Source: a virus
Virus record (IMG/VR): IMGVR_UViG_3300028840_005471
Span: 1-43,409 of that record
DNA length: 43,409 nt
Direction: 5' to 3' (one strand)
Shown: positions 1-43,409 of the stretch, in pieces
How positions within the stretch are numbered: position 1 is the first letter of the stretch
How the letters are laid out: each line of letters starts with the position of its first letter
Notes under the pieces: generated by a model
Database searches by the model: none
Seen by the model: the letters and a program-made list of their open reading frames with translations, nothing else
What the model was told of the DNA's origin: nothing
Program-made: the position numbers and the translations under genes

Positions 1-144
1 CATCAACGTGCTGCTGTCCTATAATGAGAAACAACTCAAGGAAGTGGTGAAGAAGGTGGACACGGTGCGCCAGGTGAAGAAGAAGATCCGGAAGGAGCGG
101 ATGCAGGCCAAGCTGACTGCGTGGAAAGAGAAGATCGAGACCAG
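1..144. repeat. Terminal direct repeat, left copy
   Basis: These 144 bases are identical to positions 43266-43409. The repeat lies inside a coding region that reads continuously through the junction, so the simplest reading is a circularly closed or permuted genome whose contig ends overlap. A true packaged direct terminal repeat (T7 has about 160 bp) is less likely, because such ends normally fall between genes. Confidence 0.9.
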
Positions 145-10254: not shown

Positions 10255-10264
10255 TGTTGTCTCC

Positions 10265-11275
10265 TTAATCTATTTGAAAAATGCCCCTTTTACGAGGGGT
10301 GCCTTTTAGACGAGGTTGGGCGGTCTCTTCTTTTTCCTCTGTTAAAGCCCCTTCTAACTCGTCTCGGCCTGTAGGTTTAGCAATAATCTCACCTATAGGA
10401 CGACCCTCTTCACCGCTCAAGAAAGCAGCCTCAATCCCAAGCGCACCTTTAGCCTGCCTGATGTCCCTGGCTTGCTCCTGCTGTCTCTGCCTGACCGCCT
10501 CAGTCTGGGCAAATCCTTTCTCCTGGAGACCCAACTCAAGCTTGGCCTCCTGAATTGCTGCATCACCTACCAATGCGCGACGTTCAGCCAATGCTTTAGA
10601 CTGCAAAGCAGCCTGCTCCATCAGTCCCTGCGCATTGACTTTCGCCAGCTGCCTGGCAATCTCGCCTGTGATCTTCCCGCTGGCCTCGTGAACACGCTCA
10701 ACAGCACGGCCCAGACGCTCGGTGCTTGTATTAAGCATTGCAGCGAGGGGAGCCCCAATGACCCCCCTGCGGACCATCGTGTCTTTGATGGCCTGGGTAT
10801 CTTTGTCGTGAGCACGACGCAACTCTTTCACTTCCTTCTGCGCCCGCTCGATCTCCCTCTTCTCAGACTCCGTGGCATCTGCCCGGGCCTGGTCGAGGTT
10901 AAAACTAAGGCGGTCAAGCGCCATCTTTTGCTGAGAGTTAAGCTGCTCTACTCCCTGCGCCAATGACGCCTGGATGATCCGTTTGGTCTTACCGCTCAAA
11001 ACAGAGATCGCGTCCTGAATACGGTCAATAGCCTCAGTGGCCTCGACCTCTCCTGTCCTGATCTCATCTTCAAGGGTCTCCATAAACCTGACCATCTGAG
11101 CAGCCTGCGACCGTTCTTTCTTTGTGAGGACGTCACGCTCTTTCTGTGACATCTCTTTCTCAAACCTAAACTGCCTTAACTGCTGAGACCTTGCGGACGC
11201 GCCTTCAACAATAATTCCGCTGATCCCTAATACGGCCTCTATAATAGCGCCTGCTGCTGCTGCTCCACCGCCCAT
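10265..11275 (-). CDS. Internal virion protein, coiled coil (gp14-like)
   Basis: The product is 336 residues. ATG 11275 is preceded by AAGGAGA. It begins with a Gly/Ala-rich apolar helix (about residues 2-25, GGGAAAAGAIIEAVLGISG), typical of small internal virion proteins that enter the membrane. About 200 residues of strongly charged heptad-like helix follow (ERDVLTKKERSQAAQMVRF onward). The middle holds VRRGVIGAPLAAMLNTSTERLGRAVERV, a pattern often seen in podovirus gp14-type proteins. It is first in the run of three internal virion genes and follows a holin-like gene. Function is inferred from architecture and order. Confidence 0.65.
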   Translation of the reverse strand: MGGGAAAAGAIIEAVLGISGIIVEGASARSQQLRQFRFEKEMSQKERDVLTKKERSQAAQMVRFMETLEDEIRTGEVEATEAIDRIQDAISVLSGKTKRIIQASLAQGVEQLNSQQKMALDRLSFNLDQARADATESEKREIERAQKEVKELRRAHDKDTQAIKDTMVRRGVIGAPLAAMLNTSTERLGRAVERVHEASGKITGEIARQLAKVNAQGLMEQAALQSKALAERRALVGDAAIQEAKLELGLQEKGFAQTEAVRQRQQEQARDIRQAKGALGIEAAFLSGEEGRPIGEIIAKPTGRDELEGALTEEKEETAQPRLKGTPRKRGIFQID

Positions 11276-11286
11276 AATAGTCTCCT

Positions 11287-11430
11287 TTATTTTTTTCCTG
11301 CGATCTGTTTCAGCAGGTTAATGACCAGCTGAAACACACTGTTTGATTTGAGTTTCGGGATAAAGGCCAGGACCTCACTGAGAGCGAGGACTGCACCGAG
11401 AACTGCCATCCATACTTCTTGGTTTTCCAT
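11287..11430 (-). CDS. Holin-like single-span membrane protein
   Basis: The product is 47 residues. ATG 11430 has AGGAG 6 bases upstream and the stop is TAA 11287-11289. A short polar start (MENQEVW) is followed by the apolar stretch MAVLGAVLALSEVLAFIP, then a linker with Lys, a second apolar patch (VFQLVINLL) and a basic tail. The pattern of an Ala/Leu helix, ALSEVLA, a Pro-Lys turn and NSVFQLVIN recurs in small phage proteins annotated as holins. It lies between the adhesin block and the internal virion genes. A holin role, permeabilising the membrane so that the lytic enzyme can act, is plausible but unproven. Confidence 0.7.
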   Translation of the reverse strand: MENQEVWMAVLGAVLALSEVLAFIPKLKSNSVFQLVINLLKQIAGKK

Positions 11431-11439
11431 AATAGTCTC

Positions 11440-11703
11440 CTATTTGTTTTTATTGTTCCAATTCTTATCCATATTCTCTTCCGTGTAATGGCATTTAGGT
11501 TTAACTGTACACTCATCACACGTGAATGGAAAGTAATTTGGCTGTTTAAAGTACCACTTGTTGTCAGTAAGCCGCTGCTCAGGGACCGCCCAGTTGTCTG
11601 CCTGTGCTGCAATAAGCTTGGCAGACAGACCGTCATCACACTTCTCTGCGGCAGCCACGGCCTCTGCCTCAGTGTCAAAAACAAAACAAATATTTTTTTT
11701 CAT
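11440..11703 (-). CDS. Small Cys-containing protein of the adhesin cassette, copy 1
   Basis: The product is 87 residues from ATG 11703, which overlaps the stop of the upstream adhesin by 4 bases. The N-terminus (CFVFDTEAEA, then AEKCDD) and the later DNKWYF match the gene at 13165-13431 (CVVFNTEADC, KFNEDC, DGKWYC), so the two are paralogues. Each sits directly behind a LamG-like adhesin. The last third has CDECTVKPKC, a possible metal or disulphide site. Such small partners behind fibres often serve as assembly factors or fibre accessory subunits, but that is only contextual here. Confidence 0.7.
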   Translation of the reverse strand: MKKNICFVFDTEAEAVAAAEKCDDGLSAKLIAAQADNWAVPEQRLTDNKWYFKQPNYFPFTCDECTVKPKCHYTEENMDKNWNNKNK

Positions 11704-13163
11704 GCTGATATGTACCTCTCTCTAAGATACCCATCCAGGTCCTGGACCTGCTGGTCAGAGAACTGCCCGGTGTTCCACATCCCCAGCGCCCATAAGTTGG
11801 CGGGCTGGAGGCTGTTGTAATTGTCAGACCGGGCCCCGATCTTAACTGGCTGGTTGACGGTGCCGCTTAACCCGGATGCCGGGCTGGACGCTGTGCCCTG
11901 CGAGACACCGTTGATCCAAGCCTGCAGGCTCACACCCGGTTTCCACCGACCGATGAGAATGTCACACGCACCCCCCGGTGCCGGGTAACTGACTGTCTCG
12001 TTTGCATTGTATGTCCCGGCCTGGGAAGACACGGTGTATCCTTTAAGGCCAAAGACAAACCTGCGCTGGTTAGCGTCCGTGTTCCATTTGCCGACTATTG
12101 TACTATCTAACACGTCAATAGTTCCACTGTCTGAGAAGTCAGTCTTGGGGTAATCATAAAACTTAAGCTGGTCAATCGGACCAAAAGTATTTGTATTGGA
12201 GTAAAACGCACTATGGCCTATTGCAAAGTCATAAGGCTTACCGGGGTTAAGAACGTCTGTCCAATCAGTGTTGGTAAAAATCGTTCCGTTTGACTGCCGA
12301 ACATTATTGACCCTAAGTTGTATCCTGTCAGCAGCAGCAGCACTGGCATCAAAAGTAACACCAATGTGTAGTAGATCGGACGCAGACCAGGTCGTATCTG
12401 TATTTATATAAAGGTTCATATAATTAGTATTATTGTATCTTATCCCTAGCCACCAAACATTGGTGCCTCCACCCTGGTAACGCTGGATACGCACATAATG
12501 GACGGCACTTCCGACCGGGCCGAACCATATAAGCGGGGCCTCAGCAAAAGAGAAGGCCGTATTCCACGCGTGTGTAGGTTTCCACCAGAACTCAACAGCA
12601 AACCTGTTAAGTTCACCACTATAGGCCGATAGCTTTCTCGCATAATTATTTGTGGTAGCACAATTAATACCGTTGCCATATTTGCAGGGAACAAAGGTGG
12701 GGGTCCCTACCACGTCAAGGTTAAACCCTATCTCACTGGAGATCACACCCAGTGACTGGCTGTCTAGTTTAGAATAGAAGGACACGTTTGAGGTAAGGTT
12801 GCCCAGGACCGCTGCGATCATCTGGCCATTGGTGGGGTCAATAAAGTGGTTTGAGGCGGTTGCCGGGTAAGCGACCCTGTCGTTCTGGAAGAACGCACCG
12901 ACCTTGCTGAGAGGAGACTGGACGGTACCATCATACTCTGGCCGTAAAGAGGCAGAGCCTTGGCTGAAAGTATAGTCTCCGTCCAGGTCCTTGATCTCAG
13001 AGAGAGCATTAGAGACTACCGTCCGGCAAGCCTCCGTCTCCAGGTAAGACTCGAATGTAGGAGAATATGGTGCGGGTGGCGCCGGGGTCACCTCTTTACC
13101 CCGCAGGATCGCACCCGGGTTGTACCACCCATAAAAAAAGGTTTTTCTTAACCTTCTATTCAT
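11700..13163 (-). CDS. LamG/concanavalin-like tail adhesin
   Basis: The product is 487 residues. I place the start at ATG 13163, one base after the previous stop, because its N-terminus (MNRR...YGWYNPGAILRGK) then matches the start of the 259-residue adhesin at 13469-14248 (MNRR...YHSWNTVAGRIRGK). These common first 25 or so residues look like a virion attachment piece. The middle (about residues 180-340) is a beta-rich LamG-type jelly roll with AVEFWWKPTHAW, LLHIGVTFDAS and GPIDQLKFYDYPKT. The C-terminal 130 residues form a second beta-sandwich, KWNTDANQRR through ARSDN, shared with the neighbouring adhesin. It probably binds surface glycans of the host. It is followed by its small Cys-containing partner. 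Confidence 0.75.
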   Translation of the reverse strand: MNRRLRKTFFYGWYNPGAILRGKEVTPAPPAPYSPTFESYLETEACRTVVSNALSEIKDLDGDYTFSQGSASLRPEYDGTVQSPLSKVGAFFQNDRVAYPATASNHFIDPTNGQMIAAVLGNLTSNVSFYSKLDSQSLGVISSEIGFNLDVVGTPTFVPCKYGNGINCATTNNYARKLSAYSGELNRFAVEFWWKPTHAWNTAFSFAEAPLIWFGPVGSAVHYVRIQRYQGGGTNVWWLGIRYNNTNYMNLYINTDTTWSASDLLHIGVTFDASAAAADRIQLRVNNVRQSNGTIFTNTDWTDVLNPGKPYDFAIGHSAFYSNTNTFGPIDQLKFYDYPKTDFSDSGTIDVLDSTIVGKWNTDANQRRFVFGLKGYTVSSQAGTYNANETVSYPAPGGACDILIGRWKPGVSLQAWINGVSQGTASSPASGLSGTVNQPVKIGARSDNYNSLQPANLWALGMWNTGQFSDQQVQDLDGYLRERYISA

Positions 13164-30381: not shown

Positions 30382-30390
30382 AATTCAAAT

Positions 30391-30451
30391 GGCCCCCCGG
30401 ATTTCGCTTGCTGTTGGGTGCTAGGACCAGGTCGCAGAGGCGCGGGGGGCT
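30391..30451 (-). promoter_or_regulatory. Long-range stem in the late mRNA leader
   Basis: GGCCCCCC (30391-30398) can pair with GGGGGGCT (30444-30451), including one G-U pair, to enclose a 45-base domain in the roughly 98-nt leader of the late mRNA. The G-run arm sits about 10 bases before the small terminase ATG, where the ribosome site should be. Occlusion of translation initiation is an inference. Confidence 0.4.
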
Positions 30452-30485
30452 CGAGGAGGAATGAGGGCTACTCTTTCCAATAACA

Positions 30486-30514
30486 AGTATAAAGGCTCTT
30501 GGGGGAAATGTCAA
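30486..30514 (-). promoter_or_regulatory. Late operon sigma-70 promoter
   Basis: On the minus strand a perfect TTGACA (30514-30509), a 17-base spacer, and TATACT (30491-30486, 5 of 6). The start point should be near 30479, giving a leader of about 98 nt before the small terminase gene. This is the best promoter in the window and explains transcription of the whole minus-strand block. Confidence 0.8.
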
Positions 30515-30861
30515 GGATTTTTTAAGAAGATAGGAAGACTGCATTGCAGCCTTGCTCAATAGAATATTAGGCTAAACTACAAAATAGTTTAGGTTATGTA
30601 AAAAATGTAAATTGTCAAGTTTAAAGGGCGTGGATGCGAGGGTGGGCATAATTATATATTAGCCCCGGCCCCGGGTCCGGTTCACCCCCACCCCACCTGC
30701 CCCGGAACACGGAAAAAATGGACCTGGAATCAGGAATGCTAATGGTGTGATGGAAAAAATGGACTGTGGTCCAGGGTTAATGGTAATGGTAATGGTATGG
30801 TACTGGGCATTGTCTCACCTGTTTTAAGGTAATTGGGATACTTTAGCCGTCCCCCAACACG

Positions 30862-30907
30862 CAAAGTGTCCCAATATCGGCAAAAGTGTACCGATAGGGA
30901 CACTTTG
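30862..30907. promoter_or_regulatory. Large two-tier inverted repeat, candidate operator
   Basis: CAAAGTGTCCC (30862-30872) mirrors GGGACACTTTG (30897-30907), and inside it TATCGG (30875-30880) mirrors CCGATA (30891-30896). The only asymmetry is two bases (AA) on the left, and the central loop is 10 bases. There is no T-run, so it is not a terminator. It lies 30 bases upstream of the candidate early promoter. An operator or origin hairpin is likely. Confidence 0.7.
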
Positions 30908-30937
30908 TACAGCAAAGTGAAACATCCAACACTCCGA

Positions 30938-30967
30938 TTAACACAATTCGCAATCCCTACATATAAG
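30938..30967 (+). promoter_or_regulatory. Candidate early operon promoter
   Basis: TTAACA (30938-30943), an 18-base spacer, then TATAAG (30962-30967), each 5 of 6 to consensus. It would produce a leader of about 295 nt before the gene at 31270. Other weak boxes exist downstream in the AT-rich stretch, so the true start is uncertain. Confidence 0.45.
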
Positions 30968-31007
30968 TGCAGCCAAAAGCCATCAAAATAACCTACTTAA
31001 CAACCCC

Positions 31008-31026
31008 ATACCCCTAAGGGGGGTAT
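31008..31026. repeat. Inverted repeat ATACCCC/GGGGTAT
   Basis: A 7-bp stem with loop TAAGG. Outside it, CTACTT on the left and AAGTAG on the right extend the symmetry with a 9-base bulge on the left arm. It lies just before the TATATA-rich stretch. Confidence 0.55.
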
Positions 31027-31174
31027 AAGTAGTAATATGGTGTTATAGGGTATATATATATATATTATTACTTATACTCTCTCTTATATTATATCTTTAG
31101 ATAAGTAGTTTTGGTCTTTCTACTATAGCTATACGCTTACAGGAAAAATCCAACATTCCAACATTTCAACAAAA

Positions 31175-31198
31175 AGGTGTACAAACAGGTGTACAAAC
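31175..31198 (+). repeat. Tandem 12-base repeat
   Basis: AGGTGTACAAAC occurs twice head to tail. A related CAACATT repeat lies just upstream (31151-31170). These short tandem units between the promoter and first early gene could bind a regulator or initiator. Confidence 0.6.
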
Positions 31199-31202
31199 TG
31201 CT

Positions 31203-31226
31203 TTTTACGCCGCTGTGTATAGGTGA
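31203..31226 (+). repeat. TTTTACGCC-type element, copy 1 (diverged)
   Basis: This element begins TTTTACGCC and ends TGTGTATAGG plus three bases. It is a diverged copy of the two near-identical elements at 32931 and 33193, and lies 44 bases before the first early gene. Confidence 0.5.
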
Positions 31227-31269
31227 TTGCAGGCTTGAGAGGGCCTGACGCTAAACGAGAGGTGAGAGT

Positions 31270-31887
31270 ATGACAATTAACAACAAAACAAGGGCACTGA
31301 GGACTGGCAATAGCAAGCTGGGTAAGGATGTGCCTGTATTCAATCTTCAACCTATGGCCACCTGCCCCGGCCGCACTAAGGGATGTGCTGGTAAGAGCGG
31401 GTATTGCTACGCCTGTCACGGCAATTACCTGTACCCCAGCCATATGGTGAACTGGAAGAATAATAAGGCGTTCGCTAATAGCAGGCATTTTGTGCCCGCT
31501 ATGGTGAGAGACATTGCTATACATAAGAGCAGGGTAGCCCGCAAAGGTGAGAGCCTGCGCGTCCGCCTGCATAGCACTGGGGACTTCTATTCCCAGCGCT
31601 ACCTCAATAACTGGATAAAGGTAGCAAATGAGCATCCTGACGTACAATTTCTGGCTTATACGCGCTCACATATGCTGGATTTTTCCAGCCTGCCTGACAA
31701 TTTCAAGGTCTATTACAGTATTGACGATACCACAGAGGCAATGCCCATTACCTTAAGGCAATACGCAGAGGTAGTACCCGCTGACCACACTGCCCGGGTT
31801 AAAGGCCGCCACATATGTCAAAGCGAATGCCACAAATGCAAGGCCTGCTGGGCAATGGGCTGGAACGTAGCATTTAGAATGCACTAA
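31270..31887 (+). CDS. GP88-family / radical-SAM-like protein
   Basis: The product is 205 residues from ATG 31270, with a GAGAGGTGAG ribosome site. Two cysteine clusters are visible: C32, C39, C46 and C49 near the start (TCPGRTKGCAGKSGYCYAC) and C183, C187, C190 and C193 near the end. The core holds LRVRLHSTGDFYSQRYLNNW and VQFLAYTRSHML, the signature of the GP88 phage family. That family resembles radical-SAM barrels and probably binds iron-sulphur clusters. It is the first early gene. The substrate is unknown; DNA, tRNA or a host metabolite could be modified. Confidence 0.75.
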   Translation: MTINNKTRALRTGNSKLGKDVPVFNLQPMATCPGRTKGCAGKSGYCYACHGNYLYPSHMVNWKNNKAFANSRHFVPAMVRDIAIHKSRVARKGESLRVRLHSTGDFYSQRYLNNWIKVANEHPDVQFLAYTRSHMLDFSSLPDNFKVYYSIDDTTEAMPITLRQYAEVVPADHTARVKGRHICQSECHKCKACWAMGWNVAFRMH

Positions 31888-32105: not shown

Positions 32106-32327
32106 ATGGAAATCATACAATATAAGACCATACCCAGAGGCAAAAAGAGGGAGATCACCGGGTACGTCAAGACCTGGAACCTGCAGCCGACCCGCAGTGG
32201 CGACCTCGTGGCCGACCTCGAGTACAACGGCAATAAGCTGCGGCTCTTTATAGATAAGGACGTACAAAAAGAGATCGCTATGCTCGTTACGTATTGGAAC
32301 AAGGCCAAGGAGCGCACCGATGCCTAA
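32106..32327 (+). CDS. Small beta-rich early protein
   Basis: The product is 73 residues. ATG 32106 lies one base after the previous stop with GAGGAGGAG just upstream. The sequence alternates strands (EIIQYKTIPRGKKREITGYVK, LVADLEYNGNKLRLFIDKD) and ends in a short helix. It overlaps the next gene by 8 bases. Not recognised. Confidence 0.65.
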   Translation: MEIIQYKTIPRGKKREITGYVKTWNLQPTRSGDLVADLEYNGNKLRLFIDKDVQKEIAMLVTYWNKAKERTDA

Positions 32328-32643
32328 GCACTGGCGCCCCGGGGTGACGACCGCACCCAGCGGCCTGACGTGGCGGCAGCACCGCGCCCGGGAGCAGGCA
32401 GCTATGGGCTCATCCCGGCGGCGGTACCGCAACGGCACCCGCTCGGGTGACCCCCGCATAATCCAGGCCAGGTACGCCAGCGTATGTGCCGAGACAGGCC
32501 GGGAGATAAAGGCAGGTGACAGCTGTGTCTATTACCCGCCGAGCACAGGCCAGGACAAGGGCAAGGTGTACCACCTGGAGAGTGAGCAGGCCACCCGGTA
32601 CAGGATGTGGGCTGACGATGTCAGCCGGGGATATGAGTATTAA
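32320..32643 (+). CDS. Small basic protein with Cys motif
   Basis: The product is 107 residues from ATG 32320. The first 50 residues are basic and disordered. The remainder (ARYASVCAETGREIKAGDSCVYYPP, then KVYH) matches a fold seen in small phage proteins, in which a Cys pair and a final KVYH surround a short zinc-ribbon-like unit. Its likely partner is unknown. It belongs to the translationally linked group 32106-32643. Confidence 0.65.
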   Translation: MPKHWRPGVTTAPSGLTWRQHRAREQAAMGSSRRRYRNGTRSGDPRIIQARYASVCAETGREIKAGDSCVYYPPSTGQDKGKVYHLESEQATRYRMWADDVSRGYEY

Positions 32644-32883: not shown

Positions 32884-32927
32884 GCAGGCCCGGGGGCGCA
32901 TCTGTTGGCACTACCCCCGGTGCCTGC
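32884..32927 (+). promoter_or_regulatory. GC-rich intergenic hairpin
   Basis: GCAGGC plus CCGGGGG (32884-32896) pairs with CCCCCGG (32914-32920), a bulged T, and GCCTGC (32922-32927), giving 13 base pairs with a 17-base loop. No T-run follows. It lies between two early genes, directly in front of the repeated TTTTACGCC element. Confidence 0.7.
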
Positions 32928-32930
32928 CGA

Positions 32931-32962
32931 TTTTACGCCAGTGTGTATAGGAGAATATAAAG
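32931..32962 (+). repeat. TTTTACGCC element, copy 2
   Basis: These 32 bases are identical to 33193-33224; with 9 more bases before it (one mismatch) the repeat reaches 41 bp. It ends a dozen bases before the next ATG, so it forms the 5' leader of the gene at 32975. The TGTGTATAGG stretch could serve as an extended -10 box, but no clear -35 is present. Confidence 0.75.
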
Positions 32963-32974
32963 AAGGAGAGAGAT

Positions 32975-33238
32975 ATGATAAGAGTGATAAAGACATTGCG
33001 TCCCGGGAATAGCAAGATGAGCAGCCTCATTGCCACGTGCAGCCGCTGCGGGGAGACCACCCAAGCACACCACCACAACTGGACAGCCGTGGGCGGGATG
33101 TCCTGGGCTATGGACTATATGAGAAATAAGGGCTGGAGCCTGGGGAACAGGCACCTCTGCCCCAAGTGTAATGGTAGTGCGCCGCCTGCCAATTTTACGC
33201 CAGTGTGTATAGGAGAATATAAAGGAGAAATAAAATGA
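32975..33238 (+). CDS. Zinc-finger-type small protein
   Basis: The product is 87 residues from ATG 32975 with AAGGAGA upstream. It has CSRCGETTQAHHHNW and later HLCPKCNG, two C-x2-C pairs and a His run, likely zinc-binding. The last 15 or so codons run through the second TTTTACGCC repeat (33193-33224), so its C-terminus PVCIGEYKGE is coded by the repeat. Its stop overlaps the next ATG (ATGA). Role unknown; nucleic-acid binding is plausible. Confidence 0.7.
   Translation: MIRVIKTLRPGNSKMSSLIATCSRCGETTQAHHHNWTAVGGMSWAMDYMRNKGWSLGNRHLCPKCNGSAPPANFTPVCIGEYKGEIK
33193..33224 (+). repeat. TTTTACGCC element, copy 3 (inside a gene end)
   Basis: This element is identical to 32931-32962. It lies at the 3' end of the zinc-finger gene and directly in front of the ATG at 33235, so it is the leader of the next gene while also coding for the previous one. 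Confidence 0.75.
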
Positions 33239-33543
33239 CAGACGAATACATCCACGTGATTTATCACACGGTAACCAAGCTGAGGGTGGGGATCTTCACC
33301 GAGGTATTTACCCAGAGTGTGGTCACCCTGTTCCCCCTCGACCACGGCAGTGTAGGCACCGAGGATAAAATACTGGACGAGGTAGCCGAGAGCCTGACTA
33401 ACCCTAGCTGGGACGAGGAGGGAAAAGAGTACACCTGGGCTGATGGCCTGGCCACCACCCGGCTGCGGGGCTGGATGCTGATCTCCCCCGCCACCTACGA
33501 ACTACTTAAAGAGTACGGTGTCGGAGACTACAGTGTTGTTTAG
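33235..33543 (+). CDS. Small early protein, unknown
   Basis: The product is 102 residues from ATG 33235 with AAAGGAG upstream. A beta-rich N-terminus (YIHVIYHTVTKLRVGIFTEVF) precedes a helical part and a segment with Trp and charged residues (WDEEGKEYTWADGL). The stop TAG 33541-33543 directly borders the tRNA-like element. Not recognised. Confidence 0.65.
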   Translation: MTDEYIHVIYHTVTKLRVGIFTEVFTQSVVTLFPLDHGSVGTEDKILDEVAESLTNPSWDEEGKEYTWADGLATTRLRGWMLISPATYELLKEYGVGDYSVV

Positions 33544-34137: not shown

Positions 34138-34319
34138 TGGCAAGAGAAAGAAATAAAACAGGCAGGCCCCGCCTGCCGCAGCACGAGTTCCCCGGGGCAA
34201 AGCAGGTCATTATTAAATGCCTGTCCTGTGAGATGGAGTTCCACGTGTGGCTGCACCTGGAGAAAATGTGGCCCAAGCTGTGTACGTACTGTCATAAGGG
34301 CAGGCTGGTGAGGAAATGA
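34137..34319 (+). CDS. Small zinc-ribbon protein
   Basis: The product is 60 residues from ATG 34137. It has a basic N-terminus and CLSC (about residues 29-32) with CTYC (about 49-52), a compact C-x2-C/C-x2-C zinc ribbon. Its stop overlaps an ATGATG, but the better start of the next gene lies further on. DNA or RNA binding is a reasonable guess. Confidence 0.7.
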   Translation: MARERNKTGRPRLPQHEFPGAKQVIIKCLSCEMEFHVWLHLEKMWPKLCTYCHKGRLVRK

Positions 34320-34387
34320 TGGCGCATATAATGACAGTCAACTGGGGGCAGCACCGGGACGGTATGCCCTACCTTAAGGAGGTGACA

Positions 34388-34777
34388 ATGAGAGAGAGAA
34401 TAGATCTCACCAAGCTGGATCCCCACGCCAGCCTGCTCGACGCGCTGCTGCTGTCCATTGCCAAGTGGAAATGGAAGGTGCTGTGCAGGGGGGATAAGGA
34501 AAAAGAGGCGTTATCAGGATTGTATATTCCCGAACTCCGGACGCTGTGGTATCAGTGCGGGCTATGTCACAGGTATGGTTATGCTTGTCCTGACCACAAA
34601 GAGAATTGTATGGACTGCCCGGTGGCGCAGAAGGACAATGCTTGCTGGCATATTGACTCCATCTGGTCACGCTGGAACTGTGCTAAATCCCCCCGGGAGC
34701 GGCATATGTTCGCCCAACTTATGCTATCATTGTTACGACAAATATATAACCAGGAGGTAGACAAATGCTCTACGTAA
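34388..34777 (+). CDS. Cys/His-rich early protein
   Basis: The product is 129 residues. I choose ATG 34388 because AAGGAGGTGA, a perfect complement of the 16S rRNA end, precedes it; an in-frame ATG at 34316 would add 24 residues but lacks such a site. It contains CGLCHRYGYACPDHKENCMDC, then CWH and WNC: about eight Cys and several His in 50 residues, likely two zinc sites. Function unknown. Confidence 0.7.
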   Translation: MRERIDLTKLDPHASLLDALLLSIAKWKWKVLCRGDKEKEALSGLYIPELRTLWYQCGLCHRYGYACPDHKENCMDCPVAQKDNACWHIDSIWSRWNCAKSPRERHMFAQLMLSLLRQIYNQEVDKCST

Positions 34778-35569: not shown

Positions 35570-35845
35570 ATGAAACCAACAAGAGAAGAGATGAAACAAC
35601 AATTTCAAGGTCAACTTGAAAGGTACAAACAGAAAACTGAAGAGATCAAAGAGATGCTGATGATCATCAATGATGCGTCCATTACTGATGACGATGCCCT
35701 CGGCAAGGTGGCGGCGCTTGGGATGAGGTCCATTTTGTCCTCTTCAAACGACAAAGCTAAGCTGGCTCTTATTGAAATGTTTGCTATGAAAGCTGGCGGT
35801 AAGAGCGACAAAGAGATTGAAGATAGGATCGAGGATATTTTATAA
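35570..35845 (+). CDS. Small helical protein before the helicase
   Basis: The product is 91 residues from ATG 35570 with TAGGAGA upstream. It is helical (EEMKQQFQGQLERYKQKTEE, KLALIEMFAMKAGGKSDKEIED). It is separated by one base from the SNF2-type helicase gene, so it may be co-translated with it. Not recognised. Confidence 0.65.
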   Translation: MKPTREEMKQQFQGQLERYKQKTEEIKEMLMIINDASITDDDALGKVAALGMRSILSSSNDKAKLALIEMFAMKAGGKSDKEIEDRIEDIL

Positions 35846-35846
35846 A

Positions 35847-37478
35847 ATGATCCGTAACCACCGCATCTATCTCACCGTGCCTTACGCCCAGAAGGACCTG
35901 GCGAAGGACCTGACCGGGGCTCAGTGGCACCAGACAGATAAGCAGTGGTCCTGGCCTGTGGTCATCGGGCGCGTGGTGATGGCCACCTTCCCCTGGTGCC
36001 GGGCCAAGCTGGGGCCAGCCCTCGAGGAGTACCAGCAGGCGCGTCTGAAGGCTGCCTACGGTATGCAAAAGCTGAGGGATGACCTCAAGGACAGCAGCCA
36101 GTTCAATTTAGATGCTGCTCTGAGCGACGTAGAGGTACCTGAGAGCGGTTTTCTCCTGGCTCCCTATACCCATCAACTAAAAATGCTAAAGTGTGGGCTT
36201 AAATACCCCCTCTGGGCGTTCTTTGCTGAGATGGGTACAGGCAAAACCAAAGTTATTATCGATCTACTCAGGATAAAGTCCACATTTCCTGCCCTCATCA
36301 TCTGTCCCAAGAGTGTGATGTACAGCTGGGGCAAAGAGATAGAGAAGAACAGCCGCCTGGGATACCGGATCATCAAGGGGACGGCAGCCAAGAGGCTCAA
36401 GCTGCTGGCCGAGGTGATCGAGGGGGGGTTGATAGCTATCATCAATTATGAGGGCGTGGTGGCCACCAAAGATTATGGGTGCTGGGACAGGTTTGTCCAC
36501 GTGACCCTGGATGAGAGCAGCCGGATCAAAAATCACAAGGCAAAATGTACAAAAATAATAACAAAACTTTTTACGAAATGCCCCAATAAATATATCCTGT
36601 CCGGTACGCCTATCACCCAGGGTCCCCGGGATATATACGCCCAGATGGCGTTCCTGTCCCCTGACTTCCTTGGCTTTGGCTCGTTCTACGCCTTCCGCAA
36701 TACCTATTGTAATATGGGCGGCTATGGCGGGTATGAGATCGTCAGCTATAAAAACCTCGATGACCTCAAAACAAATATCTCCCGGCATAGTATCACCTTA
36801 AAGAAGGAAGACGTGCTGGACCTGCCCGAAAAGACTTACCACGTGCGCCAGCTTGATATGTCCCCCGAGATCGAGCGGCAGTATAAGAGTATGAAGAAAG
36901 ATTTAATAGTGGAAATCTCCCAGGACGAGACGCTGACTGCCCCCATTATCCTGACAAAGATACTCCGGCTGCAACAGATCCTGGCCGGGGGGTTTGTCGA
37001 ACCCAAAAAAAATCCTAAGCTGCTGGCTCTGGAAGAGACCCTCAAGGAGATCATCGACAGCGGTAAGCAGGCTGTGGTCTGGACCCGGTTCAAGCGCAGC
37101 TATGAGATCGTGGCTGACCTGTGCCAGCGTAAGGAATATTCTTACAGCAGTGTGACCGGGGACACCAAGGACAGCGGTCCTGAGATCGAACGGTTCCAGG
37201 CCGCTCAGGCCAAGGTCATTATCTGCCAGGTCACTGCCGGGGGGTTTGGGATCACCCTGACCGCCAGCAACGTGGCCATCTATTATGAGAACGACTTCTC
37301 ACTGGAGAAGAGAAAGCAGTCAGAGGACCGGATCCACCGGGTGGGCCAGGACCTCACCTGCAATTACATAGACCTGGTGTACCGGGACACTATCGATGAG
37401 ACAGTGCTAGCTGCCATCGGTGCCAAGCAGGACATAAGCTTGCGGCTCGTTGAGAGTTTCAAGCGAGGAGAGTATTGA
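35847..37478 (+). CDS. SNF2-type superfamily 2 helicase/translocase
   Basis: The product is 543 residues from ATG 35847, one base after the previous stop; an in-frame TTG at 35817 is unlikely. The N-terminus (residues 1-60) resembles the small HARP-like module found in some SNF2 helicases. Motifs are clear: I (Walker A) AEMGTGKTK (127-135), II LDESSRIKNH (221-230), III SGTP (252-255), IV-V region VVWTRFKRS, QVTAGGFGITLTAS, and VI QSEDRIHRVGQ (491-501). It would use ATP to translocate on duplex or forked DNA, perhaps remodelling replication forks or displacing host proteins. It overlaps the next start. Confidence 0.88.
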   Translation: MIRNHRIYLTVPYAQKDLAKDLTGAQWHQTDKQWSWPVVIGRVVMATFPWCRAKLGPALEEYQQARLKAAYGMQKLRDDLKDSSQFNLDAALSDVEVPESGFLLAPYTHQLKMLKCGLKYPLWAFFAEMGTGKTKVIIDLLRIKSTFPALIICPKSVMYSWGKEIEKNSRLGYRIIKGTAAKRLKLLAEVIEGGLIAIINYEGVVATKDYGCWDRFVHVTLDESSRIKNHKAKCTKIITKLFTKCPNKYILSGTPITQGPRDIYAQMAFLSPDFLGFGSFYAFRNTYCNMGGYGGYEIVSYKNLDDLKTNISRHSITLKKEDVLDLPEKTYHVRQLDMSPEIERQYKSMKKDLIVEISQDETLTAPIILTKILRLQQILAGGFVEPKKNPKLLALEETLKEIIDSGKQAVVWTRFKRSYEIVADLCQRKEYSYSSVTGDTKDSGPEIERFQAAQAKVIICQVTAGGFGITLTASNVAIYYENDFSLEKRKQSEDRIHRVGQDLTCNYIDLVYRDTIDETVLAAIGAKQDISLRLVESFKRGEY

Positions 37479-37675
37479 TGTGGCAACCCAGTGAAGGATT
37501 AGAGAAGACGGTCATCAAGTACTGGGAGGACCTGGCGAAGAACGATCCCGAGCGGTACGAGCGTGAGAAGAACGAACTGCTGTACCCGAAGAGAAAAATA
37601 AATATAGGGCTCAGTGTGGTCGGTACCATATGGCTGCTGCTCACCCTGCTGGCCCTGGTGATAGGAGGTAACTGA
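37478..37675 (+). CDS. Small membrane protein
   Basis: The product is 65 residues from ATG 37478, which overlaps the helicase stop (TGATG), with GAGGAG upstream. A soluble charged first half precedes a single membrane helix (INIGLSVVGTIWLLLTLLALVIGG). It may anchor early phage proteins to the membrane. Role unknown. Confidence 0.65.
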   Translation: MWQPSEGLEKTVIKYWEDLAKNDPERYEREKNELLYPKRKINIGLSVVGTIWLLLTLLALVIGGN

Positions 37676-38058
37676 TGAGAGAAATAAAGTTTAGAGCGTG
37701 GGATGAGCAACATAAAGAAATGCATTATAACTTTGAGTGGATTAGTAGCGGTATTAGCGGGAATGATTGGATAGTATTTCGGTCTAATAGACAGAAATTA
37801 TCTAATGAGTCACCCCCTTTTGAAAACCCATATTTTAGACAGCAATTTAAAATTATGCAATACACCGGGCTGAAGGATAAGAGCGGTAGGGAGATATATG
37901 AGGGGGATATTATGGGTCGTTTTGTTGTTAAATATATTATAAATAATGCTCAATTTAAATTAATGGCAAAAGATGCTGAGTTCGATTTGGACTACGGACA
38001 TGATCATTTCGAAGTAATCGGCAATATATACGAAAACCCGGGGCTGCTGGATGGCTAA
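37675..38058 (+). CDS. YopX-family phage protein
   Basis: The product is 127 residues from ATG 37675 with AGGAGG upstream. The start MREIKFRAWDEQHKEMHYN and the core QYTGLKDKSGREIYEGDIM, then FEVIGNIYENPGLL are the family signature. The function of the family is not known. The gene is markedly AT-rich against its neighbours, a sign of recent transfer. It overlaps the next gene by 8 bases. Confidence 0.85.
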   Translation: MREIKFRAWDEQHKEMHYNFEWISSGISGNDWIVFRSNRQKLSNESPPFENPYFRQQFKIMQYTGLKDKSGREIYEGDIMGRFVVKYIINNAQFKLMAKDAEFDLDYGHDHFEVIGNIYENPGLLDG

Positions 38059-38266
38059 AGACGGACCGCTGACAGCCCTCGAGTTACCCAACATAAAGCA
38101 CCTGCGTACCCTGTGGGAACAGAAAAAAAAACGGTGGGTGTACGGTAAGGTAGAACTGGTGGAAAAAAAGTGGCTCATTTACTATGACCCCGACTTTGTG
38201 TATGATATACTTAATCTGCTTAGTCGGAAGATAGATGAGATAGAAAATCTTAGGAGTAAGCAATGA
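38051..38266 (+). CDS. Small basic protein
   Basis: The product is 71 residues from ATG 38051. A basic middle (WEQKKKRWVYGKVELVEKKW) precedes a helical acidic end. It overlaps both neighbours. Not recognised. Confidence 0.65.
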   Translation: MAKDGPLTALELPNIKHLRTLWEQKKKRWVYGKVELVEKKWLIYYDPDFVYDILNLLSRKIDEIENLRSKQ

Positions 38267-38721
38267 CAGAGTTTACCGCACAAGGCAAAGCTAAAGAATT
38301 ACTTTTAAAGCTGCGCCTCAAAGCCAGGTACGAGGCCCACCTTAAGGACCTCAACAAAAATATCGGTATTGAGATCGGGCAGCTACACGACGCTATGGTC
38401 GACGAGGGCCTGGACAGCATCGAGATCGACGGCATCAAGTTCGCCCCCCAGGAGGAGACCACCTTCGCCCTGAACAAAGATGTCACGGACGCTGGCAAGT
38501 GGGATGACTGCCCCGAGTTCCTGGCCTGGCTCGAGGAGACAAAGAACAGCGGGGTGATCAAGACTATCAAAACCGTACATCCTCAGACCAGGACTAAGCT
38601 TATCAAAGAGCACGTAGAGAAAGGTGGCGAGTTGCCCCCTTTCATCAAAGAAAACGTGTGGGGCAGTGTCAAGTATAACAAATCGGCTGTAGCGAGGCTG
38701 GTAGAAAGTGACCGCGCTTGA
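38263..38721 (+). CDS. Early protein with coiled-coil start
   Basis: The product is 152 residues from ATG 38263 with TAGGAG upstream. The N-terminal 50 residues are a charged helix (AKELLLKLRLKARYEAHLKDL). The rest is alpha/beta with EIDGIKFAPQEETTFAL and a C-terminal PPFIKENVWGSVKYNK. Proteins of this layout often accompany phage recombination or single-strand-binding genes, but no specific family is confirmed here. It overlaps the following gene by 14 bases. Confidence 0.6.
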   Translation: MTEFTAQGKAKELLLKLRLKARYEAHLKDLNKNIGIEIGQLHDAMVDEGLDSIEIDGIKFAPQEETTFALNKDVTDAGKWDDCPEFLAWLEETKNSGVIKTIKTVHPQTRTKLIKEHVEKGGELPPFIKENVWGSVKYNKSAVARLVESDRA

Positions 38722-38875
38722 GGTTATCTCTTTACTATTCCTTGTGTTGGCTGTAGTCTGGGCGGCAATGGCTGCCCGGGACCTGCGCAAAGGTAGCCGC
38801 ATCGCACGGTGGTTGCGGTTGCCTTTCCAGCGCAGGATGTTTATATTAAGATCGCGGAGGGATAAGAAGAAATGA
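38708..38875 (+). CDS. Small membrane protein with basic tail
   Basis: The product is 55 residues from GTG 38708, with GAGG 9 bases upstream. An N-terminal apolar helix (ISLLFLVLAVVWAAMAA, residues 7-23) precedes a strongly basic tail (RKGSRIARWLRL and RSRRDKKK). The gene overlaps the previous one by 14 bases and the next by 4 (ATGA), leaving no gap, which supports it. Function unknown. Confidence 0.6.
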   Translation: MTALEVISLLFLVLAVVWAAMAARDLRKGSRIARWLRLPFQRRMFILRSRRDKKK

Positions 38876-39204
38876 CAGAGGCTAATATCAAAGCCAGCAT
38901 AAAACGCTACCTCGACAAGTACGAGTGTATGCACTTTGTGTACAACCCCTTTATGGGAGGATGCGCCGGGATCCCTGACCGGGTGGTCCTGGCCCCCGGG
39001 TACCCCTCCATCTGGCTGGAGGTCAAGCGGGAGGGCAAAGAGCCCACTACCCTGCAAAAGCTGCGGATCAGCCAGATCATAGCCGCTGGTCATATGGCCA
39101 CTGTTGTCCGCAGCAAGGAAGATGTTAAGCAGTTCTTCGAATTGCATAACATAAAATTATCCAAGAAAGGAGAAACCAATGGACCAAGAAACCAAAAAAA
39201 ATGA
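38872..39204 (+). CDS. VRR-NUC domain nuclease
   Basis: The product is 110 residues from ATG 38872 (ATGA overlap). The PD-(D/E)XK fold of the VRR-NUC type is visible: Glu in the first helix, GCAGIPDRVVL (IPD, catalytic Asp near 35), WLEVKREG (the E-x-K pair near residues 49-51) and LQKLRISQIIAAGH. It should be a stand-alone structure-specific nuclease, typical of phage replication modules. It lies between a membrane protein and the probable ssDNA-binding protein, overlapping the latter by 26 bases. Confidence 0.88.
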   Translation: MTEANIKASIKRYLDKYECMHFVYNPFMGGCAGIPDRVVLAPGYPSIWLEVKREGKEPTTLQKLRISQIIAAGHMATVVRSKEDVKQFFELHNIKLSKKGETNGPRNQKK

Positions 39205-39991
39205 AGTCCAAACCACTGGAAGTAATGTCCCTGACTTCCTCCGGACCGAGGGTGACCTCGGCACCGACGAGATTGGGACCCAGGACATCATCGTCCCCCG
39301 CCTCAAAGTATGCCAGGCTATGTCTACAGTCAAGCAGACCAACGAGGACGTGCGTGACGGTGACTTTTACAACGCTGCTACCGGGCGCGTGTACGGTAAA
39401 GAGATCGAGTTTTTTATCCTGCTGATGTGGCGGTCACGCATATGGTTTAATGACCAGATGCAGCTGATCGGGATGGAGATGCTCGACAAGCGCACCAAAG
39501 AGGTCAAGCATATCGGCCTGGAGATCGAGAACATCATCAACAATAAGGCATTGTACGATAAAGGTATCGACAGTCACAATTATATGCTGGTGATGGCCGA
39601 CGACCTGGCGAAGGGCAGCCCCGAGATCCTCATCTACTCTGCCCAGTCCGCTGCTATGAAGACCTCCCGGCAGCTTAACTCTAAGCTGGCAGCTAACGCC
39701 CGGGGTAAGGTACCCATCTACGGTCAACGCATCAAGTGTGCCGCTACCCTGCAGAAGTTCAGTAAGGGCTCTGCCTATATGCCTGTGTTCTCCTACCCGG
39801 CATACGCTACCGAGCAGGAGTTCCCTGTACTTAAGCAGCTGTTTGAGCAGGCCTCCAGCCTGCAGGGCCGTGACGACGTGATGACCCAGGAGTCACCTAC
39901 CGACCGGGACAACCCCCCCCCCAAGGACGCACCGATCGACGCTAACGATATGTTTAGCGAGCCTGGCAGCGATCCTTTTTACAACGAGTAA
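39179..39991 (+). CDS. Probable single-strand DNA-binding protein
   Basis: The product is 270 residues from ATG 39179 with AAAGGAGA upstream. The core is beta-rich with a basic face (ARGKVPIYGQRIKCAATLQKFSKG). The tail is Pro/Asp-rich and ends acidic with an aromatic (SDPFYNE), much like SSB tails that dock partner proteins. It lies between a nuclease and the MCM-type helicase, where an ssDNA binder is expected. Identification rests on layout and context rather than a confirmed family. Confidence 0.6.
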   Translation: MDQETKKNEVQTTGSNVPDFLRTEGDLGTDEIGTQDIIVPRLKVCQAMSTVKQTNEDVRDGDFYNAATGRVYGKEIEFFILLMWRSRIWFNDQMQLIGMEMLDKRTKEVKHIGLEIENIINNKALYDKGIDSHNYMLVMADDLAKGSPEILIYSAQSAAMKTSRQLNSKLAANARGKVPIYGQRIKCAATLQKFSKGSAYMPVFSYPAYATEQEFPVLKQLFEQASSLQGRDDVMTQESPTDRDNPPPKDAPIDANDMFSEPGSDPFYNE

Positions 39992-40053: not shown

Positions 40054-42207
40054 ATGCTTACACCTGAACAGATACAATACTTTGCCGCCTGTGTTGCCGC
40101 CTTTGCTGCGGAGAAAGAGATGCAGGCCTGGCTGGAAAAACACCAGGGTGTCAACCTGGATGATGCACTTAAGAACGAGTTTGGCTGGGACGCCAAGCAC
40201 CAGCAGTTTGTGCTGCCTGTACGTGGTGTCAAAGGAGACTACCTTGAGTTAAAGAAGTTCTTCCTGCACGACGAGGGCAACTGGCTGGAAGAGGCAGACG
40301 GTGCCTATGAAGAGGTGGACCTGTCCGGGTCCATCAATGCCAAGTACTACGGTAAGAACATTGCGTTCAGCGGCATAGCTATAGGGAAGGACCTCAGTCC
40401 CTACCTTGTGCCGCACCACATCTGTATCAGCTGCGCGGAGCGGGGCCAGAAGAAAAAGTGTATAGGCTGCGGTACAGCCGACGGAGACATTGATCGTATC
40501 CTTACTATAGATGACGACAAGGACCTATTGGTCCGGTTCCCCAACAGCAGCAGTCAGCAGGTCAACGGTGACATCCGCCGCTACTTTAATATCCCCTCCT
40601 ACAACACCTGCCGTCTGGTCAACGTTGAGGTCAAACGCAAAATAAACCTCGAGGAGATCAGGCTTACAAGTGAGGTCAACTATGAGCGCATCGACAACGA
40701 CTACGTGATCCACCGCTGCTACGTGCTGGGCAAAGAGATGCGCACCAACCAGGCTTACAAGTGTTACGGTACCACCTGGGTGGACCCCAAGACCCAGCAG
40801 GGGATACATATAATAAAGAAAGCTAAAGGCGAGAGTAACAATATCCGTAAGTGGGAACTGACCCCGGAGATACACGAGCAGCTTAAGCTGTTCCAGCCGG
40901 AGAACCAGATGGATAAGTTCTCTGTTGCAGCTAAGATACAGGAGATCCACCGGGACCTGGAGCACAACGTCACTAAGATATGGAAGAGAGATAATATTCT
41001 CACTGCCTGTGATCTTGTGATGCACACCCCCCTCCACTTCCGCTTTTTAGGCGAGTACGTACAGAAGGGCTGGGGTGAGTGTGCTATTATAGGTGACACC
41101 CGCACAGGTAAGAGCGCCACAGTCAAGGCCCTTATCCTCCACTACAGGGGTGGTGAGTTTATTACGTCAGGCGAAAATACGACGCTGGCGGGCTTATTGG
41201 GTGGTCTGCAGCAGGTGGCCCCGGGTAAGTGGACCCTTAACTGGGGGAAGATAGTGATGAACGACCGGGGCCTGGTGGTCATAGACGAGGCTGACACCCT
41301 GCTTGAGCAGAACATAATGGGCCACCTCACTGGGGTACGGTCCTCTGGTGTAGCCGAGGTCGTTAAGATCCAGACACAGAAGACGATGGCCAGGACCCGC
41401 CAGATATTTATAGCCAATCCCAAGAATGGTTCACTGGCTACCTACAACCACGGCATAGACACACTGTGGGATATTTTTGGTAAGGCGCAGGACATAAGCC
41501 GCCTGGACTTTGCTGTGTTTGTAGACGAGGGGGCAGTGAGTTCCGAGGAGATCAACCGCCGGATGGAGGAGCAGGTGCCCCACGTGTTCACCTCTGAGAT
41601 ATGCCACGAGCGGCTGATGTGGTCGTGGACCCGGCGCAGCAAACAGATCCTCTGGGCTCCCGGCTGTGAGGACTACATCCTGCAGGCCTCCATTGAGATG
41701 GGCAGGCAGTATACTCCCGAGATGCCGCTGGTCATTGGTGCTGAGATGCGGTACACTATAGGTAAGATGGCGGCCAGCATTGCCGCGCAGATGTTCTCGA
41801 CAGACGACAGCGGTGAGGTCCTTATTATCCATATGGCCCACGCGCAGGTAGCCGTGGAGTGGTTATGCAGGCAGTACAACTCAGCTGTGAGCGGGTACTC
41901 TGACTACAGTGAGCAGCTTAGGATGGATCGCGAGATCAAAAATGTCAAGGACCTGGAGGACATCATCGACGACGTTGACATTATCAATGAGTTGCTGTCT
42001 ATCAAGCAGCTGCAGATCACTGATGCCGAGGAGATATGGGACGTGAACAGGGACGGCGCCCGGACCAGGATCGCTGTGCTGCGGCGCTGCGGTGCTATTA
42101 AGAAAGTGAGTTATTATTATAAGAAGAGCCCGGCGTTTATACACTGGCTGAAGGACGCTAAGCGCAGGCTTAAAAACGGTGAGATATTTCACAGCGAGGA
42201 GGAATGA
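40054..42207 (+). CDS. MCM-type AAA+ replicative helicase
   Basis: The product is 717 residues. ATG 40054 follows a GGGGATTT stretch with a poor ribosome site. An N-terminal zinc module is seen (C124, C127, C136, C139). The ATPase shows MCM rather than DnaB features: Walker A GDTRTGKS (347-354), SGENTTLAGLLGGLQ (helix-2 region), GKWTLNWGKIVMNDRGLVVIDEADTL (Walker B Asp411-Glu412), KIQTQKTMARTRQIFIANP (sensor 1 Asn455), ISRLDFAVFVDE (arginine finger Arg483; SRFD in cellular MCM) and sensor 2 Arg566. A winged-helix end follows. MCM hexamers unwind DNA 3' to 5' in archaea and eukaryotes. Such a helicase is rare in bacterial phages. Confidence 0.85.
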   Translation: MLTPEQIQYFAACVAAFAAEKEMQAWLEKHQGVNLDDALKNEFGWDAKHQQFVLPVRGVKGDYLELKKFFLHDEGNWLEEADGAYEEVDLSGSINAKYYGKNIAFSGIAIGKDLSPYLVPHHICISCAERGQKKKCIGCGTADGDIDRILTIDDDKDLLVRFPNSSSQQVNGDIRRYFNIPSYNTCRLVNVEVKRKINLEEIRLTSEVNYERIDNDYVIHRCYVLGKEMRTNQAYKCYGTTWVDPKTQQGIHIIKKAKGESNNIRKWELTPEIHEQLKLFQPENQMDKFSVAAKIQEIHRDLEHNVTKIWKRDNILTACDLVMHTPLHFRFLGEYVQKGWGECAIIGDTRTGKSATVKALILHYRGGEFITSGENTTLAGLLGGLQQVAPGKWTLNWGKIVMNDRGLVVIDEADTLLEQNIMGHLTGVRSSGVAEVVKIQTQKTMARTRQIFIANPKNGSLATYNHGIDTLWDIFGKAQDISRLDFAVFVDEGAVSSEEINRRMEEQVPHVFTSEICHERLMWSWTRRSKQILWAPGCEDYILQASIEMGRQYTPEMPLVIGAEMRYTIGKMAASIAAQMFSTDDSGEVLIIHMAHAQVAVEWLCRQYNSAVSGYSDYSEQLRMDREIKNVKDLEDIIDDVDIINELLSIKQLQITDAEEIWDVNRDGARTRIAVLRRCGAIKKVSYYYKKSPAFIHWLKDAKRRLKNGEIFHSEEE

Positions 42208-42533: not shown

Positions 42534-42736
42534 TGGGCGAAATACAAATATTGCCGTGTAGTGGATACGGTGAAGGAAAAATGCATGAAAGATGTCCGGT
42601 AGTTAAGTCAGTAGAAGAAGTGCAAGCTGAAAACATGCAATTGCGGGATGCGTTGGAAAGGATAAGATTGTATGCGGGTAATGAAACAGGAATATTAGAA
42701 ATTAATGCTATAGCTAAAAAAGCATTGGAGGAGTGA
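42533..42736 (+). CDS. Small helical protein with a coiled-coil core
   Basis: The product is 67 residues from ATG 42533, with GGTAAGGAGGAG upstream (the same site as the previous gene). VEEVQAENMQLRDALERIRL is a coiled coil similar to the ENAELRDAL segment of the protein at 42207. Likely small early partner; role unknown. AT-rich. Confidence 0.65.
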   Translation: MGEIQILPCSGYGEGKMHERCPVVKSVEEVQAENMQLRDALERIRLYAGNETGILEINAIAKKALEE

Positions 42737-43041
42737 TGGATAAAGACAAGCTTAAGTCTATTCTCACGATGGCGGCACGGTCCGCGCACTGGGATGAGTT
42801 TGGTGTAGCCTGCCAGTTTGCCTCCATCTCTAAATCACAAGCGATCCGTGAGGCTATGTGGCAATGGATGAATAAGCACCAGAAGGACATTGATGCTTTG
42901 TACCGCAAGTATGACTTTGTGCGGAAGAAGAGGCCGTCGTTCTACGACGTGTTTAAAGCCCTGTGCATTGAACTCGAGGTGTCAGAGAGCAAGGGCATCA
43001 AGATGGCTATGAGAGACTGGCTGGATAAGGTGAGAAGATGA
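42736..43041 (+). CDS. Small protein with internal duplication
   Basis: The product is 101 residues from ATG 42736 (TGATG overlap, GGAGGAG upstream). Residues about 21-51 (EFGVACQFASISKSQAIREAM) and 71-100 (VFKALCIELEVSESKGIKMAM) follow the same pattern: F, Cys, S-x-S, Ile, AM, W and K at matching spacing. Each resembles a ribbon-helix-helix/HTH-like half, so it may bind DNA as a built-in pair. Family unknown. Confidence 0.65.
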   Translation: MDKDKLKSILTMAARSAHWDEFGVACQFASISKSQAIREAMWQWMNKHQKDIDALYRKYDFVRKKRPSFYDVFKALCIELEVSESKGIKMAMRDWLDKVRR

Positions 43042-43259: not shown

Positions 43260-43409
43260 ATCCATCATCAACGTGCTGCTGTCCTATAATGAGAAACAAC
43301 TCAAGGAAGTGGTGAAGAAGGTGGACACGGTGCGCCAGGTGAAGAAGAAGATCCGGAAGGAGCGGATGCAGGCCAAGCTGACTGCGTGGAAAGAGAAGAT
43401 CGAGACCAG
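43222..43409 (+). CDS. Basic coiled-coil small protein, 5' part (continues at 1)
   Basis: ATG 43222 has AGGAGG 6 bases upstream. The frame runs to the contig end and continues in the identical repeat at position 1 to the stop at 262, 101 residues in total. The first 17 residues (MNTITAIITAITKSIIN) exist only at this end. It overlaps the zinc-ribbon gene by 38 bases. Confidence 0.75.
   Translation, partial: MNTITAIITAITKSIINVLLSYNEKQLKEVVKKVDTVRQVKKKIRKERMQAKLTAWKEKIET
43266..43409. repeat. Terminal direct repeat, right copy
   Basis: This is the exact second copy of bases 1-144. Joining the copies restores an uninterrupted 101-codon gene and gives a unit genome of about 43,265 bp. Confidence 0.9.

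Follow-up and report, generated by a model that had tools for sequence, protein, structure and literature searches.

The locus and its genomic context

The stretch of viral DNA analysed here, 43,409 nt in its full length and referred to below as the window, carries in its early-gene region a gene for a predicted MCM-family helicase of 717 residues (Table 1). From its 144-bp direct terminal repeat, the genome is probably complete. The absence of a gene is therefore meaningful, although small unrecognised genes remain. The first-pass annotation, made from the sequence alone, had described the virion as T7-like. We found that the virion genes match the portal, major capsid and adaptor of the SU10 type (PF23899, E = 4e-20; PF17236, 5.5e-27; PF24175, 8e-9) rather than specifically those of T7, and searches with terminase and capsid retrieved no close isolate. 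A protein of 2413 residues (1179-8420), whose gene adjoins that of a lytic transglycosylase (622-1176), has no significant family match and is probably a large ejected virion protein.

The early region also encodes a GP88-family protein (31270-31887, E = 4.7e-33) and a YopX-family protein (37675-38058, 1.3e-25). An 889-bp divergent intergenic region (30382-31269) holds an AT-rich palindromic stretch (31042-31071) and lies near the minimum of the cumulative GC skew, which makes it a candidate origin, with the reservation that the skew also follows gene orientation here. A 44-nt direct repeat (32922-32965 and 33184-33227), with copies that are 95% identical and 262 nt apart, is located near gene starts.

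Four genes of this region (SNF2, gp33-like, gp34-like and MCM) are common to the window and to the two other genomes, L006 and L007, that encode a helicase of the same primase-less type. The SNF2 helicase had been recognised correctly in the first-pass annotation; it is 46% identical to its homologs in genomes G001 and G002, and more distant homologs occur in G003 and G005. The gp33-like gene is likewise conserved in the sister genomes G001 and G002, as judged by tblastn. The proposed VRR-NUC endonuclease fell below the Pfam VRR_NUC cut-off (E = 0.068), but it was matched clearly in PHROGs and its G001 homolog does pass that cut-off, so that we retain it as a candidate.

The gene directly upstream of the helicase gene encodes a Pam3 gp34-like protein. 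Of the 50 virus records with an MCM gene, 18 also carry this one. Its end lies no more than 300 nt ahead of the helicase gene in 11 of the 17 genomes compared, which comprise the window, L006, L007 and 14 more whose genes were located. The structural model (confidence 78.6) has an OB-like strand pattern. Its best fold match is the ssDNA-binding protein of RB69 (probability 0.99, E = 4e-3), but with a TM-score of 0.30 this match is weak, and the model is therefore no more than suggestive of an SSB-like protein. Several gp34-like homologs have acidic tails that end in IPF; the tails of bacterial SSB proteins are likewise acidic and end in IPF.

Table 1. Features of the helicase gene, its neighbours and the genome ends (window coordinates)
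Feature	Position	Strand	Evidence
Direct terminal repeat, 144 bp, left copy	1..144	.	
SNF2-family helicase/translocase	35817..37478	+	PF00176, 4e-26
Pam3 gp33-like protein (DUF7307)	38263..38721	+	PF23984, 1.5e-12
VRR-NUC-like endonuclease candidate	38872..39204	+	phrog_93 endonuclease, 4e-19 (PHROGs)
Pam3 gp34-like protein, candidate ssDNA-binding partner	39179..39991	+	PF23977, 4.5e-18; directly upstream of helicase
MCM-family replicative helicase, primase-less, 717 aa (predicted)	40054..42207	+	Pfam MCM, AlphaFold2 model, PDB fold matches
DnaG N-terminal core remnant, aa 10-73	40081..40272	+	fused-family HMM positions 97-158
MCM N-terminal-like beta-rich domain, aa 79-280	40288..40893	+	fused-family HMM resumes at 303; MCM fold matches
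AAA+ MCM core	40930..41517	+	PF00493, aa 293-488; catalytic residues invariant
Walker A GDTRTGKS, aa 347-354	41092-41115	+	
Walker B VVIDEAD, aa 408-414	41275-41295	+	
Pre-sensor-1 stretch KIQTQKTMARTR, aa 438-449	41365-41400	+	
Arginine finger SRLDF (Arg483)	41497-41511	+	
C-terminal winged helix, aa 655-691	42016..42126	+	secondary structure of model
Direct terminal repeat, 144 bp, right copy	43266..43409	.	

Fold and motifs of the helicase

The first-pass annotation had assigned the 717-residue protein to the MCM helicases and proposed a structural comparison with MCM and DnaB. Both sequence and structure searches agree with this assignment. The only Pfam family detected in the protein was MCM (PF00493, E = 1e-8, 35 bits against a curated cut-off of 23.3 bits), and a phmmer search of PDB sequences returned MCM chains almost exclusively. 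An AlphaFold2 model built from a 65-sequence alignment reached a mean pLDDT of 91.5, and all 50 of its best PDB folds were archaeal or eukaryotic MCM proteins, with no DnaB-type structure among them. These matches extend over 556-695 alignment columns and so take in not only the ATPase but also the N-terminal MCM domain.

The previously noted Walker A, Walker B, pre-sensor-1 and SRLDF motifs are all present, sensor 1 is Asn455, and the residues D348, G352, K353, R449, N455 and R483 are invariant in the 65 homologs. In the model, the pre-sensor-1 hairpin is formed by strands 433-437 and 441-445. The predicted C-terminal winged helix was also seen, with helices at 655-662 and 666-678 followed by strands at 682-685 and 688-691. 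The proposed N-terminal four-cysteine zinc site required a correction: the conserved set is Cys127, Cys136, Cys139 and Cys186 (64-65 of the 65 alignment rows), whereas Cys124, part of the local set C124/C127/C136/C139, is not conserved. These four residues are likely to form the zinc site of the N-terminal domain. Judged from sequence and model together, the gene product belongs to the MCM family of AAA+ helicases and has its catalytic residues intact.

Absence of other replication genes

The absence of DnaB, primase and polymerase genes, as stated previously, was borne out in this apparently complete genome. Family searches for PolA, Pol III alpha, PolB, DnaB_C and TOPRIM found nothing in the whole window record, the DnaB_C search thus revealing no RecA-type hexameric helicase domain of the DnaB or T7 gp4 kind, and Pfam-wide scans, which covered the larger ORFs as well as nearly all early-region ORFs, gave no replicase or primase. 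The same five families were absent from all three primase-less genomes, while positive controls were detected elsewhere. Among the 50 MCM-bearing virus records, PolA was found in 17, Pol III alpha in 18 and PolB in none; 15 records, some of which are fragments, had none of these. The window phage is thus not alone in lacking a polymerase. Tailed phages that have no DNA polymerase at all are well known (PMC11348598).

Fused relatives and descent from a primase-helicase

Relatives of the window helicase were found by tblastn in 50 phage records, in most of which they are annotated as DNA primase or primase/helicase. An initial scan of viral sequences with the single helicase protein as query returned nothing; a scan of viral contigs yielded 317 relatives, of which 80 were retained. 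Genome contigs gave no match to a narrow helicase profile and only three metagenome-assembled contigs with a broad one. Nearly all untruncated relatives are 900 to over 1000 residues long and have about 300 extra N-terminal residues; most are chimeras of about 950 residues, in which a bacterial primase of the DnaG type, with CHC2 zinc ribbon and TOPRIM, is joined to MCM. Pfam detects TOPRIM in front of the MCM domain in Youna2, ctIqW946, Haunter and, weakly, API480, and a CHC2 zinc ribbon in Youna2, ctIqW946 and API480 but not in Haunter. In vB_BboS-125 an archaeo-eukaryotic primase instead of the DnaG type precedes MCM. The family profile matches PDB structures of both DnaG (Aquifex DnaG 2au3, 7e-25) and MCM. 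The search for this gene family, which had been recommended earlier, thus succeeded, and it uncovered an origin from a DnaG fusion that had been missed.

We compared the window protein with an HMM that was built from 68 fused proteins and has 932 positions. Residues 79-707 align to positions 303-926 with 675 bits, and the DnaG N-terminal core remnant of about 64 residues lies ahead of them. Absent are positions 1-96, corresponding to the CHC2 zinc ribbon, and positions 159-302, corresponding to the catalytic TOPRIM domain, so that the remnant sits between two lost domains. The proteins of L006 and L007 have the same two gaps. The remnant scores 25.5 bits in the window protein and 21.9-32.6 bits across the three proteins, while the best of 6000 shuffled sequences reached 9.1 bits; a profile-profile comparison gave a probability of 96.4 (E = 1.4e-9). 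Shuffling and profile comparison together rule out a chance match. In the fused proteins, the counterpart of the remnant aligns with DnaG roughly where the zinc-ribbon linker ends and the RNA polymerase core begins. Identity among the three primase-less proteins is only 16-35% in the remnant compared to 47-52% in the remainder with the motor, which indicates that constraint on the remnant is weak.

In a quick tree the three proteins that lack the primase group as a single clade (SH-aLRT 100), which branches from within the fused family, and a single loss is therefore the simplest history. On the evidence of these alignments and the tree, the window helicase arose from a fusion of a DnaG-type primase with MCM, and the zinc ribbon and TOPRIM domain were deleted in the common ancestor of the window phage and its two relatives. 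An assembly or truncation artefact is ruled out by the occurrence of the same architecture in two other genomes, two of the three (the window and one relative) having terminal repeats. A separate primase elsewhere in the genome was rejected, since neither the TOPRIM search nor a scan of the predicted ORFs with an HMM for the primase half of the fusions found one.

Other arrangements were observed in the family. In L055 the primase half (8786-9586, with a CHC2 match) and the MCM half (9833-11875) are separate neighbouring genes, with the primase upstream, indicative of fission; the terminal repeat of this record measures 127 bp, and PolA, Pol III alpha and PolB were not matched in it. L065, a 15.7-kb fragment carrying PolA, encodes a 613-residue MCM protein (9989-11830) without any primase segment, possibly an independent primase loss. 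The fused DnaG-MCM records L015, L021 and L028, a sister clade in the tree, are likewise without a match to PolA, Pol III alpha or PolB, so that the polymerase may have been lost or absent before the primase was lost.

Comparison with known systems

The MCM halves of Haunter gp47 (Microbacterium phage), Youna2 UKM63140.1 (Weizmannia phage) and ctIqW946 UOF80042.1 are homologous to the window protein at 25-29% identity, as is that of Paenibacillus phage API480 gp47 by a partial tblastn match. The genes share the early-gene position, but these four phages encode a polymerase and have retained DnaG-type parts (CHC2 and/or TOPRIM), while the window genome has no detected polymerase and its helicase only the remnant. 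The Bacillus cereus prophage protein BcMCM and the protein of Bacillus phage vB_BboS-125 are phage MCM helicases as well. Both have an archaeo-eukaryotic primase in place of DnaG, whereas the window protein has neither kind. For BcMCM, a 3'-5' helicase activity has been demonstrated (PMC4538821).

With archaeal and eukaryotic MCM2-7 the window protein shares the AAA+ core with its pre-sensor-1 and helix-2 regions, the N-terminal domain and the winged helix. It differs in overall sequence (11-16% identity in structural alignments), in its N-terminal DnaG remnant and in its zinc ligands C127-C136-C139-C186. A parallel in history is metazoan mitochondrial Twinkle, a replicative helicase with a primase-helicase ancestor, which lost primase activity but kept part of the domain; in the human protein, the inactive primase domain contacts DNA and stabilises the ring (PMC9860392). 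The two motors are not homologous. Twinkle has a motor of the T7 gp4/DnaB type and keeps its inactive primase domain, while the window protein has an MCM motor and most of its primase has been deleted.

Proposed role of the helicase in phage replication

We consider it reasonably probable that the gene encodes a primase-less, Twinkle-like MCM fork helicase that works with an SSB-like partner encoded upstream and with DnaG and polymerase III of the host. As the phage's own hexameric fork helicase, the MCM motor would load at the phage origin, open the duplex and, as characterised MCMs do, probably travel 3'-5' on the leading-strand template, while the gp34-like protein would coat the single strands. 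With the cis primase lost, primers should come from host DnaG, and the host would provide polymerase III as well. The remnant ahead of the motor could be an element for DNA contact, oligomer stabilisation or docking; by analogy, not homology, it may act like the inactive primase domain of Twinkle in contacting DNA and stabilising the ring. A point against this reading is that bacteria recruit DnaG through DnaB, a 5'-3' helicase, whereas the window motor would have to recruit it while moving 3'-5'. The more specific proposal, in which an MCM-type 3'-5' motor recruits DnaG and polymerase III of the bacterium in trans and the remnant serves as a docking or doorstop element, is tentative, and we would sooner expect it to fail than to hold.

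The main rival explanation, which we regard as unlikely, is that MCM serves only as an initiator that melts the origin, after which host DnaB is loaded and the fork is run by DnaB, DnaG and polymerase III. The cis primase would then have become superfluous because DnaB recruits DnaG, and its loss without replacement fits such a fork; moreover, initiator helicases are often encoded by mobile elements (PMC7581432). However, the motor has kept every catalytic residue and, like the fused primase-helicases, which have the appearance of fork enzymes, it still has both the winged helix and the MCM N-terminal domain; no separate DnaB loader was recognised. We think it quite improbable that the phage makes its own replisome, with MCM as one part and a primase or polymerase hidden among the unassigned small genes. 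Many early ORFs do lack an informative match (for example 32320-32643, 33235-33543, 34316-34777 and 42733-43041), but at about 153 residues or less the unassigned ones are small for a polymerase. Furthermore, Pfam-wide scans of early-region ORFs in the three genomes show no primase or polymerase, and no tested unassigned ORF is conserved along G001 and G002 in the way of the SNF2, gp33-like, gp34-like and MCM genes. The poorly conserved remnant and the nearby SNF2 and nuclease genes would be compatible with a decaying primase-helicase, or with a recombination or repair helicase that is dispensable for replication. The conservation of the motor at 44-51% identity across the three genomes, without the loss of a single catalytic residue, and its being the only hexameric-helicase candidate found make this very improbable, and the fork-helicase reading remains the one we prefer.

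Implications

The first-pass annotation had regarded an MCM helicase without the rest of a replisome as unusual. This holds in part: phage MCM helicases are of a known kind and the lack of a polymerase is shared, but the loss of primase domains from a fusion is unusual. Earlier reports already cover the prophage BcMCM, other phage and plasmid MCMs and AEP-MCM fusions (PMC4538821, PMC5862659). In a literature search of partial coverage, which is not proof of novelty, we found no description of a DnaG-type MCM fusion or of a primase-less derivative.

Helicase-primase coupling is usually framed as bacterial DnaB with DnaG versus archaeal and eukaryotic MCM with PriS/PriL. In the phage family described here, MCM is combined with the bacterial DnaG, and the lineage of the window then discarded the primase, in parallel to metazoan Twinkle and with an unrelated motor. 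For annotation this means that the label 'DNA primase' in these phages stands for genes that encode the probable fork helicase. As the same motor occurs fused to its primase, split from it (L055) and without it, coupling between a 3'-5' helicase and lagging-strand priming is directly testable. If recruitment in trans is true, the outcome would be a mixed replisome, in which an archaeal/eukaryotic-style helicase operates with bacterial synthesis machinery.
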